In this document: one piece after another, positions 16,744 through 20,791 of the stretch | Layout: each line of letters opens with the position of its first letter | Position numbering within the stretch: the first letter of the stretch is position 1 | IMG/VR virus record: IMGVR_UViG_3300009537_000188 | Coordinates: 1-23,201 of that record | Source of the DNA: a virus | Reading direction: 5' to 3' (one strand) | Length of the DNA: 23,201 nt | The notes under the pieces: generated by a model | The model's database searches: none | Told to the model about the DNA's origin: nothing | What the model saw: the letters and a program-made list of their open reading frames with translations, nothing else | Position numbers and translations under genes: made by a program

Positions 16744-16753
16744 ATTATTTTTT
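16741..16753. repeat. Direct repeat, right junction of the HNH gene (copy 2)
   Basis: The 13 bases CATATTATTTTTT are identical to 17234-17246. On the coding strand both read AAAAAATAATATG: the Lys codons and stop of one gene and the start of the next. Confidence 0.7.
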
Positions 16754-17236
16754 ATTAAACATAGTCTGATAATTAGTCTTTGCTTTATTAGCATAACTGT
16801 CAGTCTTCTTGTGACATGGAACACATAAAGTTCTTCCGTTTTCAATTACCAGTCTAAGTTCTGGGTAATAGGCAAAGGGCTTGATATGGTCTGCGTGTAA
16901 GGTAACTCCACGACTTCCACACTCTTGACATGTGTAGTCATCTCGCTCAAATACAGCTATTCGCCAATCTTTGTACTTTTTGCTCGTTCTAATTTGTTGG
17001 TTAATTGGGGTAATTCCGCCTTTCCACAGGTGGCTTTTTGCTCCCTTACGGGAATTGCTCATTTTCAATCTTGTTTCTGGTGAGTGGTTTTGAACGCCAA
17101 CCCTTCCTTTGTTCCAGGGAATTCTACCCTTTCTGGTTTTGCTCCAGAGTTCTTTCGTGTCTTGGGAGTGTTTTTTCCCTAACATTCCCTTGTAACCCAC
17201 GTGCCCCTCCTTAAATGATGTTGAAGATTTAGCCAT
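16745..17236 (-). CDS. HNH homing endonuclease with NUMOD3-like DNA-binding repeats
   Basis: This 163-aa protein (start ATG at 17236, MAKSSTSFKEGHVGYKGMLG) is a selfish nicking or cutting endonuclease. Residues 8-75 contain several short Lys/Gly-rich units of NUMOD3 type (KGMLGKKHS, TRKGRIPWNKG, RLKMSNSRKGAKSHLWKGG) that bind DNA. Residues 86-145 are the HNH nuclease: ERDDYTCQECG with Cys103/Cys106, LHADHIKPF with D116/H117, N133 in IENGRTLCVPCH, and Cys138/Cys141/His142. Both zinc pairs and the catalytic His are intact. It stands alone between the glycosyltransferase and the coiled-coil gene and both neighbours look complete, so it is not obviously inside an intron. A start further upstream at 17284 would overlap the glycosyltransferase and is less likely. 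Confidence 0.85.
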   Translation of the reverse strand: MAKSSTSFKEGHVGYKGMLGKKHSQDTKELWSKTRKGRIPWNKGRVGVQNHSPETRLKMSNSRKGAKSHLWKGGITPINQQIRTSKKYKDWRIAVFERDDYTCQECGSRGVTLHADHIKPFAYYPELRLVIENGRTLCVPCHKKTDSYANKAKTNYQTMFNKK

Positions 17237-17246
17237 ATTATTTTTT
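17234..17246. repeat. Direct repeat, left junction of the HNH gene (copy 1)
   Basis: The 13 bases CATATTATTTTTT recur exactly at 16741-16753, so the HNH gene is bracketed by identical junctions. Confidence 0.7.
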
Positions 17247-18314
17247 GAATAGTGACTCATATGCTTCTTTCCAACGCCACGCATTATTCTCTATCGAGTA
17301 AGTCTTTTCAACATATTCCTTAGCTTTCTTTCCCATATCTCGTCTTAGTTCCTTGTTAGAGATAAGTGTTTCAATTTGTGCTATCCAACTTGCAGTGTCT
17401 GTGGCTAGTAAAAGGTGTTTAGCGTCCTCTGGATTCACTTCGTAAGGAGAGTCCTTGGTAGGGAATGATTGTCCGATAGTTGGGATTTCTAGCATTGAGT
17501 TCTCTAAGAATTTGAGGTTAGACTTACAGCGATTGAATACTGAATCATATCTAGGAATGATAACCATATCTAGCTTTAGTCCGTTAAGGTACTCGTAGTA
17601 TTCATCTGTTGTCGTATATGAGTGCCATTCTACGTTTACTCTGTTCCAAAAGGCATATTCGTCTACATAAAGTTGCTTGTAGATTTCATTGTTTCCCTCT
17701 GGTGGTAGTGAGAGTAGAACCAAACGAACTCTTGGGTCATTCTGATAGTGTTCTACGATAGGTTTCAAGACTTCAACGTCTGAAGTTACTCCTACTGAAC
17801 CAGTAATGCCTATTCTTACGATGTCTGTTTCGTTTCTTAGTGGTTCTGGGTAGTAGAATGGGTCTACTGTGTTAGGAAGAACTACTACATTGGGATTTAA
17901 AGGTAGGTATTCTTGTCTTAAACACTCGGTGGAACAAGTTACTAGGTCTGCCATTTTGATAAAGGCATCTAGGTTCTTGTTCATTTGACCCAATCCTCGT
18001 TTAACTCTTTCTTCGTTTAGGTAGTCTGTGAACTTTAATCCGCCTGTGTCTTTGTAGGTGTCATCATTGTCAAACACAATCTTCTTGCCTTGTGCCTGTA
18101 GTTGCTTGGCTACTGCTAATAGTGCATCTGATTCTGGTCGATGGAAGACTACTACATCAGCGTCCATAATTGCCCTAGCCTTTTGTTCTGGTGCTGGTGT
18201 TCCTGCCAATGAGAGAGTGGTTCTGTCCCCATCCCATCCGTTCTCCTGTAAAGGAAAGAGGCATCTGACGTTATAACAGCCTTCGAGCGAGGTATGTACG
18301 AAGTATACTTTCAT
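17238..18314 (-). CDS. GT-B fold glycosyltransferase, 358 aa
   Basis: This protein resembles the GT4/GT1 group of nucleotide-sugar glycosyltransferases. Its N-terminal half has VYFVHTSLEGCYNVRCLFPL, DADVVVFHRPES and KKIVFDNDDTYKD. The linker has TCSTECLRQEYL and VVVLPNTVDP. The C-terminal half carries IRIGITGS-like start VRIGITGSVG, DMVIIPRYDSVFNRCKSNLK and FLENSMLEIPTI, which is the donor-binding region with the conserved Glu pair spacing. The final KKAKEYVEKTYSIENNAWRW is the usual C-terminal helix. No membrane segment is present. It starts by an ATGA overlap with the 95-aa gene in the capsid operon, so it is made with virion proteins. It might glycosylate capsid or tail protein; acceptor and sugar are unknown. 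Confidence 0.82.
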   Translation of the reverse strand: MKVYFVHTSLEGCYNVRCLFPLQENGWDGDRTTLSLAGTPAPEQKARAIMDADVVVFHRPESDALLAVAKQLQAQGKKIVFDNDDTYKDTGGLKFTDYLNEERVKRGLGQMNKNLDAFIKMADLVTCSTECLRQEYLPLNPNVVVLPNTVDPFYYPEPLRNETDIVRIGITGSVGVTSDVEVLKPIVEHYQNDPRVRLVLLSLPPEGNNEIYKQLYVDEYAFWNRVNVEWHSYTTTDEYYEYLNGLKLDMVIIPRYDSVFNRCKSNLKFLENSMLEIPTIGQSFPTKDSPYEVNPEDAKHLLLATDTASWIAQIETLISNKELRRDMGKKAKEYVEKTYSIENNAWRWKEAYESLFKK

Positions 18315-18664: not shown

Positions 18665-19515
18665 TTAAGAGACGGTCAGGATAGTTACACCTGCGTTATC
18701 TCTGTTCTGCACTACACCGTAGAGCAAGTCTGCGGTTGTAAGAGTTGAGAGGTAATCTGGGATGTAGTTAGACTGAACACGAACACCATATCTACCTGTC
18801 ATTGAGCTACCTAGAGAGCCACCTGCTCCTAATGGAGAGGTTGCGAAGTGCAAAGCATCTCGGTTAGCCAATGCATTGTATCGTCCAGCTGTTCCTGAAA
18901 CGTATTGAACGTTTGCTGAAACGTAAACTGGAATACCATACAGGGTTGCTCGTGGGAGCTTTGCTGTAGGGTCGTTAACTGGAGAATTGACTGCGAGTGA
19001 GAACTTATCAAGATTCTGTACTTGCTTCCAAAATGTATTTGGGTGCATGAAGAATGCTGTGTCTGACTGTGTGTCAATTCCTACCGATTCAAGAGTTGTG
19101 ATAGCTGCACGGATTTCACTGTCGGCTAGGTTAGTAGTCGAAGCACCTGCTTTTGCTGTGAAGTTCTTGAAGAGGTTAGCGAGTGCGACTTCTAGTTTCT
19201 TGGCCATAGTGTAACCAGCACTTCTTGCATACCTCTCTTGGAGGAAGTAAGAATGCTTTACTTGAGCTGCTTCCTTGTCTTCGATAGCGAACGAAACTTC
19301 AAACCACTGGTCTACTGTAAGAGTAACCTTAGTGTCCGTAGGGGCATTAAGAGTAACTGCAGTAGCGTTGGTCTTAGCGTTTGCTGTGAATTCAGTCAAG
19401 TTAGGAGTGTAAAGGGTTGAACCTCCACCTGATAGCTCGTCTGAACGGTCTACGAAGAAGTCTGCAATCAAGAGTTTCAATTTGAAGAACTCATTGATTT
19501 TCTCCCCCCATAATA
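18665..19515 (-). CDS. Major capsid protein, exon 2 (residues 19-301)
   Basis: This exon encodes almost all of the HK97-fold major head protein. It opens with the split Leu codon and then LWGEKINEFFKLKLLIADFF, VDRSDELSGGGSTLYTPNLT, a typical N-arm for this kind of coat protein. The rest includes VDQWFEVSFAIEDKEAAQVK, an Ala-rich spine helix region (GYTMAKKLEVALANLFKNFT), a P-domain-like segment around TLESVGIDTQSDTAFFMHPN, and the end DLLYGVVQNRDNAGVTILTV. A TTG at 19480 could in principle start a 271-aa product, but it would lose the conserved N-terminus. Joined with exon 1 (55 + 851 = 906 nt) it gives exactly 301 codons plus stop. Its position after portal and scaffold supports the assignment. 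Confidence 0.88.
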
Positions 19516-20214
19516 CTTGTTGTTACTATTCCTTTCGGAACGCCTAGAGCATTTCTGCTAGGTCAGTGTTTTTATTTATAGACACTGGTCGGACTATTGC
19601 ATACCTTTCGGCTCACTTCGCTTAGTCTCTGCAAGTCCTCGTTGATTAAGAATTTTTAACTGCTTGTATATATCTGTTCTAGCTTTGTTGATTGACTCAC
19701 GATTAACATTAGTTATCTCCACTTGAGTTTCTTCTAGCTTAATTATTAATTTTGCTTGTCGCTCTTTAACAATTAGGTAAGGAAGAAGTTTTTTAGCTAT
19801 TGGTATAACTCTTGTCATACCTCTGAACTCTAAAGACGATTTATTTGAGCAATTATTGTTAGGGTTTTTTCTATCCCCACTTATCTTGTTGACAGATAGA
19901 TTTCCATAACCGATAAAGTTTTTAATTGCTTTTAATACTTCGTCATTGCGAGTTACTTGAGATATTTTTAGGACTGGGGTGTAGTAATATCCATAATGAT
20001 TGTCCCTATGCTTGATTTTAATAAGAGGACTATCCATTTTCCTTACTAGACCGAAGTATCCTTCGCCGTCTATAAAGCCAGCTATATATTCAGGTGTTAT
20101 ATTCATACACAACTAGTGTATCATATAACTATTCTTAATGTCAAGGTTCTTGAGCGTTGTCCTGTCGGATTTTCGCCATTGATTAGAAGTGATTTGAATC
20201 CCCCTATTATGTCA
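19516..20214 (-). ncRNA. Group I self-splicing intron in the major capsid gene
   Basis: All core helices can be paired on the minus strand. P1: exon AUCCCCU (20221-20215) with guide GGGGGAU (20204-20198), ending in the expected U-G. P10: CAUAAUA (20211-20205) with exon 2 start UAUUAUG (19515-19509), 7 perfect pairs. P3: UCACUUC (20192-20186) with GAAGUGA (19619-19613). P4: GGCG/CGCU (20177-20174, 20156-20153). P5: UCC-GACA-GGA. P6: CAAG-AAC-CUUG. P7: GACUA (19627-19623) with UAGUC (19596-19592). The 3' end has hairpins CAGUGU/ACACUG and UUCC-GAAA-GGAA. The last base is G. Splicing restores the capsid frame exactly. The subgroup is not assigned. Confidence 0.9.
19594..20106 (-). CDS. Intron-encoded LAGLIDADG homing endonuclease
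   Basis: This 170-aa protein (ATG at 20106, MNITPEYIAGFIDGEGYFGL) carries one LAGLIDADG motif at about residues 8-16 (IAGFIDGEG). The conserved acidic residue is D13 and the packing glycines are present. One motif implies action as a homodimer that cuts an intronless capsid allele and spreads the intron. Further features of the fold are visible: KIKHRDNHYGYYYTPVLKIS, VTRNDEVLKAIKNFIGYGNL, FRGMTRVIPIAKKLLPYLIV and KERQAKLIIKLEE. The C-terminal codons run through the intron core, and the TAG stop lies in the 3' strand of P7, so ORF and ribozyme share sequence. Expression is probably from the unspliced capsid transcript; no reliable promoter of its own was found. Confidence 0.88.
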   Translation of the reverse strand: MNITPEYIAGFIDGEGYFGLVRKMDSPLIKIKHRDNHYGYYYTPVLKISQVTRNDEVLKAIKNFIGYGNLSVNKISGDRKNPNNNCSNKSSLEFRGMTRVIPIAKKLLPYLIVKERQAKLIIKLEETQVEITNVNRESINKARTDIYKQLKILNQRGLAETKRSEPKGMQ

Positions 20215-20269
20215 AGGGGATGTTTGATGCCAGCGTTGTGCTGGTCATCGTGTCTGTTGCGAATGCCAT
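20215..20269 (-). CDS. Major capsid protein, exon 1 (residues 1-18 and first base of codon 19)
   Basis: Fifty-five bases encode MAFATDTMTSTTLASNIP plus the T of a Leu codon, the usual N-terminal sequence of this type of phage coat protein. The exon lies 15 nt after the scaffold stop. There is no clear Shine-Dalgarno; the upstream bases are A-rich. If the intron is not removed, translation ends after 20 residues at a TAA inside the intron loop. The exon ends in CCCCT, which pairs with the internal guide to form P1. It is far too short to be found by length-based gene calling, so an automatic annotation would give a capsid protein truncated by 30 residues. Confidence 0.87.
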
Positions 20270-20284
20270 TTGTAATGTTTGTAA

Positions 20285-20791
20285 TTAACCCATTATCTTC
20301 TTGAAGGCTTTCAAGTGTTCCTCACGGGTCATATCAGGTTTAATTTCGGATGTATCTCTCGATTCACCTGAACCTTTTGAAGCACCTAACCTAGCGTCTT
20401 CTCTCTTCTTCTTTGCGGCCATACTGGCTTGATATGCAATAAACATATCGTCTTTTAGTGCTTCTTGAAGAGAAGTACCATTGCCTTTGGCAATAATCTT
20501 CGCTTTGTCGATTTCTTCATCTGATAACCCCCGAGCAATCAACTTTAGTTCTTCTGGAAGTTGTGAGTCGTTGGTAATGTTGGTTTCTTTGGGAACGGGC
20601 TTATTCTTGTCTGCATCGTAGGCCATAGCCTTGCGTTGCATAGTCTTAAACTTCGCCTTCGGAATAGAGATGGTTTCCTCTTCTTCCTGAGGTTTCTCCT
20701 CCACGTTTTCAGTTTCGGTAGTTTCCTCTGATGTTTCTTCTTCTTCCTGTTCTAGAACATCTTCTCGAACACTTTCATTTTCTGGTTCCAT
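20285..20791 (-). CDS. Capsid scaffolding protein
   Basis: This 168-aa protein has a very acidic N-terminus (residues 1-40, mostly Glu and Thr: EDVLEQEEEETSEETTETEN). Helical segments follow (AKFKTMQRKAMAYDADKNK, LPEELKLIARGLSDEEIDKA), and the basic C-terminal part ends EEHLKAFKKIMG. An acidic, helical, Cys-free protein between portal and coat genes is the standard pattern for phage scaffolds, whose basic helical end binds the coat protein during prohead assembly. No protease domain is fused. The ATG at 20791 is preceded by two small hairpins rather than a ribosome binding site. Confidence 0.78.
   Translation of the reverse strand: MEPENESVREDVLEQEEEETSEETTETENVEEKPQEEEETISIPKAKFKTMQRKAMAYDADKNKPVPKETNITNDSQLPEELKLIARGLSDEEIDKAKIIAKGNGTSLQEALKDDMFIAYQASMAAKKKREDARLGASKGSGESRDTSEIKPDMTREEHLKAFKKIMG

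Follow-up and report, generated by a model that had tools for sequence, protein, structure and literature searches.

The window, by which we mean the whole 23,201-nt stretch of viral DNA analyzed here, carries on its minus strand a major capsid gene in two pieces. Joining 20269-20215 to 19515-18665 yields 906 nt that read in frame as a 301-amino-acid major capsid protein. Exon 1 reads ATGGCATTCGCAACAGACACGATGACCAGCACAACGCTGGCATCAAACATCCCCT on the minus strand from 20269, while exon 2 begins TATTATGGGGGGAG downstream of a 699-nt insert and ends with a stop at 18665, giving the predicted spliced junction ...AACATCCCCT/TATTATGGGG.... The exon coordinates, the in-frame join and the peptides proposed in a sequence-only reading of this DNA proved exact. 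The features of the gene and its insert are as follows.

20215..20269, minus strand: first exon of the major capsid gene, spanning codons 1-18 and base 1 of codon 19; in relatives without an interruption, residues 1-19 align with it
18665..19515, minus strand: exon 2 of the major capsid gene, from the remainder of codon 19 to the stop; phrog_267 major head protein
19516..20214, minus strand: group I intron, 699 nt, with terminal G; P1/P10 guides, conserved core, model match ending at 19516, covariation
20198..20221, minus strand: P1, exon AUCCCCU (20221-20215) with intron GGGGGAU (20204-20198), U.G at the splice site; from sequence
20205..20210, minus strand: P10 guide AUAAUA, pairing with the exon 2 start UAUUAU (19515-19510) at 6/6 positions
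20186..20191, minus strand: P3 5' strand CACUUC, pairing with GAAGUG at 19619-19614
20149..20177, minus strand: P4 (GGCG/CGCU), P5 (UCC/GGA) and the P6 5' strand (CAAG); pair counts over eight introns
20115..20144, minus strand: probable promoter within the intron (TTGACA, 18 bp, TG-n-TACACT), with its -35 box overlapping P6/P6a
19594..20106, minus strand: ORF of 170 aa within the P6a loop for a LAGLIDADG homing endonuclease with a single motif; PF00961, PDB relatives, sibling ORFs
19516..19638, minus strand: ribozyme 3' half, with the P6 3' strand, P7, the P3 3' strand, P8, P9, P9.1, P9.2 and terminal G; model R1

A scan of IMG/VR with exon 2 returned 36 loci, about two dozen of which aligned across the junction, and a capsid profile scan gave 80 loci among the matches listed, partly on the same contigs. 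Most of these relatives encode an uninterrupted capsid protein. One alignment took in 15 relatives of the joined protein. The relatives are colinear with it from residue 1-3 across the junction, with no gap at codons 18/19, and this establishes the empty-site sequence without recourse to an RNA model. As the proposed restoration of the N-terminus implied, the 30 N-terminal residues upstream of an internal TTG are kept in the relatives, with P18 and W21 invariant. The score against PHROG 267 (major head protein) rises from 59.1 bits for the exon 2 product alone to 68.9 bits for the joined protein. Read without splicing, the capsid frame closes after 20 codons, at TAA TAG within the guide sequence, so that a gene caller would be misled by a truncated ORF; the call is indeed 271 aa from the internal TTG at 19480 (18665-19480), as had been foreseen.

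The window and its relatives are metagenome contigs, and no isolate was matched at the sensitivity used. INPHARED searched with the capsid and portal gave no match, and a prophage search of GTDB genomes with the capsid profile confirmed no relative. At 20269-20290 and at the relatives' starts, no obvious Shine-Dalgarno sequence precedes the capsid start codons, and the leaders are A-rich.

The insert has the architecture of a group I intron. The core helices P3, P4, P5, P6, P7 and P8 are all present, and the P10 guide directly precedes the P1 guide. P6 is formed by CAAG/CUUG and P7 by GACUA/UAGUC, whose 5' strand has the arrangement G-(A bulge)-G; after P8 (GCC/GGU) come P9, P9.1 and P9.2, and G is the final intron base. 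Thus every helix named from the sequence alone (P1, P3, P4, P5, P6, P7 and P10) and the terminal G were found, with P8, P9, P9.1 and P9.2 besides. The U.G pair of P1 at the 5' splice site and the 3' terminal G are shared by the window and all siblings at the same site. P5 is short and there is no large P2. Subgroup IA introns have extra P7.1/P7.2 helices, which are absent here.

To compare the helices, we used eight introns at the codon 18/19 site, those of the window and of loci L038, L020, L027, L078, L084, L085 and L116, the last in a very divergent capsid. Summed over the introns, pairs were kept in 48/48 cases in P3, 32/32 in P4, 24/24 in P5, 40/40 in P7, 48/48 in P9 and 55/56 in P1, and the pairs of P8, P9.1 and P9.2 were kept as well. 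Compensatory changes support P3 (at four positions), P4, P5, P7 and P8, while the pairs of P6 are invariant and therefore uninformative. Because the helix strands for these counts were written out by hand, independent support comes from a pair count made by a tool on a sequence-only alignment. With the window left out, P7-P9.2 scored 0.807 for covariation, compared with 0.308 +/- 0.043 when shuffled and at most 0.14 when slid, and 17/23 pairs had changed on both sides. A search with the P3-P5 pattern found a ninth intron, L119; L117, a match from a pattern search, lies in an unrelated gene and was rejected as a chance match. Over nine introns P10 formed 50/54 pairs, against 30.4 +/- 4.2 when guides were dealt to other exons, with 0/10,000 deals as high, so the guides track the exons they serve. 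Covariation excludes a chance origin of the pairings.

A covariance model of the 3' half (model R1), built from seven sibling introns with the window left out, found the window at 130.7 bits (E 7.5e-33); the match spans 19638-19516, with the terminal G as its last base. The check suggested at the outset, RF00028, gave no match on the window even at E 10, most likely owing to the ~500-nt P6a insert that carries the ORF. At the same site, the ORF-less 227-nt intron of L027 reached 41.3 bits (E 1.9e-9) with RF00028, whose gathering score is 50 bits, and the ORF-less sibling L020 only 12 bits; two introns at another site exceeded the gathering score. That the major capsid gene contains a group I intron with these splice sites is thus borne out by covariation and by the sibling-built model.

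The RF00028 miss and the 271-aa call from TTG 19480 would both fit a capsid gene broken by a degenerate endonuclease insertion, with exon 2 starting at the internal TTG and the pairings incidental. Given the 30 conserved N-terminal residues with invariant P18 and W21, the strong covariation of P7-P9.2 and P10, and the R1 match, we consider this extremely improbable. LAGLIDADG proteins occur also in inteins and archaeal introns, so the insert might in principle be removed as an intein, a group II intron or an archaeal bulge-helix-bulge intron, or be passed over by translational bypassing. This too has a negligible probability: stop codons lie two codons past the junction, so the insert is no intein; the ORF matches no reverse transcriptase family; and the helices are of group I type and are kept by eight other introns at the same place.

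The sequence-only reading had omitted the LAGLIDADG ORF within the intron. This ORF matches PF00961 (E 3.3e-7, 31.6 bits against a cutoff of 23.1) and has the motif IAGFIDGEGYF, with the acidic residue present. Searched with its profile, the PDB yields single-motif LAGLIDADG enzymes, namely 3e54, I-MsoI (3fd2) and I-CvuI (5a72), with a best E of 1e-8. Like these, it has one motif in a chain of ~170 aa and would be expected to dimerize; the sequence similarity is only distant, and its activity is a prediction. An AlphaFold model of the endonuclease (mean pLDDT 48) was too poor for use. The 3' end of the ORF overlaps P6, P7, P3 and P8, whose strands encode its last residues, RGLAETKRSEPKGMQ, and the stop codon falls within the P7 3' strand. 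The ORFs of three sibling introns are 55-71% identical to it and have a conserved core in common. Full ORFs are found in the window, L038, L078, L085 and L119; L084 retains a 48-aa remnant with an internal deletion, L116 a C-terminal remnant, and L020 and L027 have none. Such a series from full to remnant to no ORF is what a homing cycle of gain, decay and loss predicts.

Upstream of the ORF, boxes similar to TTGACA and TACACT, 16-18 bp apart, recur in five other introns with an ORF or its remnant (L038, L078, L085, L084 and L116) and are missing from the two ORF-less introns L020 and L027. A general promoter scan was not beyond chance (2 found, 2.9 expected). The boxes are probably the intronic promoter of the endonuclease, conservation being the one line of support. 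We also considered a translational switch by a start-codon hairpin (AUACAC/GUGUAU) and rejected it: the hairpin is present in the window, but folding is no better than in shuffles and the siblings fold differently.

Introns interrupt the capsid gene of the relatives at four sites: codon 4/5 (site C), codon 18/19 (site A, that of the window), codon 72 (site B) and codon 74 (site D). Site C, after codon 4, is occupied in L024, L090, L096, L102 and L103; site B, within codon 72, in L019, L020, L103 and L105; and site D, within codon 74, in L022, L027, L029 and L030. Three genes carry two introns each, L020 (A+B), L027 (A+D) and L103 (C+B). At sites B, C and D the junctions read in the relatives restore the capsid frame in all cases, model R1 matches most introns (E 1e-9 to 1e-19), and the ORF-bearing introns carry HNH-type genes. 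In the site C introns (L096, L024, L090, L102 and L103), the HNH genes follow the ribozyme core and the first exon has only 12 nt of coding sequence. The sites in codons 72 and 74 lie six bases apart, with introns at 3243-3999 in L019, 4126-4333 in L020, 1109-1857 in L022, 3183-3999 in L029 and 2874-3640 in L030; several ORF-bearing introns there show, by eye, TTGAcT-like and TATGAT-like boxes 17 bp apart before the HNH gene.

Altogether, 17/78 distinct capsid genes carry an intron; since the ranking of loci went by match length, this count of interrupted genes is probably too low. Carriers are scattered over the capsid tree. The fewest changes on the 78-gene tree are 15 for any intron and 7 for the seven site A carriers, as scattered as shuffled labels. 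Site A itself is polymorphic for presence and absence, and relatives lacking the interruption reach 86% identity. The junction follows the first base of codon 19 (CCC T/TA) in the window and L038, and falls between codons 18 and 19 (CCT/...) in the other six site A capsid relatives. P1 needs a T immediately before the junction, and 8/8 site A carriers among the capsid relatives have one; of 60 intronless alleles, only 19 have CCT as the Pro18 codon.

Between distant phages, the intron cores are more identical than the exons. This suggests horizontal transfer but is not proof, since structured RNA evolves under constraint and no such excess is seen in the endonuclease ORFs. A close relative of the window intron lies at 8547-8930 of L116, in a very divergent major head protein (phrog_283/267), at the equivalent place directly before Thr-Leu-Trp. 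The introns of all four sites could represent one ribozyme lineage, repeatedly retargeted within one gene by rewriting of the P1/P10 guides and by exchange of endonucleases (LAGLIDADG in P6a; HNH after P9 or between P1 and the core), with the one-nucleotide shift of splice register at codon 18/19 as one such step; we put this forward tentatively, at somewhat less than even odds.

Elsewhere in the window, a glycosyltransferase gene (17238-18314, minus strand; phrog_7162) lies close downstream of the capsid gene and has a homologue in 94 of the searched loci. A free-standing NUMOD3-HNH endonuclease ORF (16745-17284, minus strand) lies between it and the next gene, and model R1 found no intron there. 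This ORF is absent from L008, L014 and L019; its relative in L003 is placed in front of the glycosyltransferase, and L020 matches its first 44 codons only.

Taken together, the boundaries, fold, covariation, intact ORF and patchy distribution, all established by sequence comparison, lead us to assign a probability of about 96% to the 699-nt insert being a mobile group I intron, with the capsid RNA spliced to give the 301-aa product and the intron spreading by homing. The capsid pre-mRNA would fold into the P3-P9 ribozyme and, as we infer, splice itself. Guanosine bound in P7 would attack after the U paired with G in P1; the freed end of exon 1 would then attack after the terminal G, aligned by P10, joining the exons into the mRNA for the 301-aa capsid protein. 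Transcription of the LAGLIDADG ORF, probably from the intron's own promoter, would lead to a dimeric endonuclease. This enzyme is predicted to cut close to the conserved Ile-Pro-X-X-Trp codons in capsid genes that lack the intron, which repair would then copy into them.

An intron that splices but has lost mobility, its LAGLIDADG protein being inactive or only a maturase, is an unlikely though appreciable alternative. The ORF is eroded or lost in sibling introns, so loss of mobility is common in the family, and the protein differs from the solved single-motif enzymes (best E 1e-8). The window ORF is nevertheless full length, its motif is IAGFIDGEGYF, its core is common to three siblings at 55-71% identity, promoter-like boxes precede it, and the introns are scattered in distribution. 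We therefore favor the mobile intron.

In the td intron of phage T4, the endonuclease ORF lies in P6a. The td intron and its endonuclease I-TevI resemble the window in having the ORF in a peripheral loop and a promoter inside the intron; the td late promoter is proven, whereas that of the window is predicted (PMC2988022). I-TevI is a GIY-YIG enzyme, unlike the LAGLIDADG protein here.

Among capsid introns, that of mycobacteriophage LittleE (Cluster J) has been shown to splice by RT-PCR and N-terminal sequencing, in a study that also cites Tuc2009 (PMC3706429). LittleE is similar to the window in its ~0.8 kb insert in the major capsid gene, an exon 1 ending in U, an intron ending in G, a LAGLIDADG-like ORF and intronless relatives (PMC3706429). 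It differs in that its ORF lies on the opposite strand and its group I assignment was tentative (PMC3706429), whereas in the window the ORF, placed in P6a, runs in the direction of the capsid gene and covariation supports the fold; the two phage groups are unrelated. Group I introns also occur in core genes of crAss-like (Delta, Zeta) and Jug phages (PMC7886860, PMC12363816), and one crAss-like Zeta capsid gene is split by introns into five fragments (PMC7886860), a precedent for a multi-intron capsid gene. Those are large gut phages, whereas the longest contigs related to the window are ~40 kb and the four sites appear in different relatives as scattered alleles. Group I introns bearing endonuclease ORFs are thus already known from capsid genes, and the window is a well-resolved further case, not a new kind of element. 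The expectation that capsid introns are known but uncommon holds in its first part, given LittleE and the crAss-like phages; in this clade they are not rare, with 17/78 genes at four sites.

These results correct how an essential gene is annotated in a phage group that is uncultivated and has no match among sequenced isolates at the sensitivity used, and about a fifth of the sampled capsid genes in the clade are interrupted. Four insertion sites, two endonuclease families and alleles that are intact, eroded or empty coexist in this clade, a natural series that can serve tests of intron movement, of endonuclease loss and of how guides are kept matched to changing exons. Its capsid introns are a good case for studying the spread of such elements.
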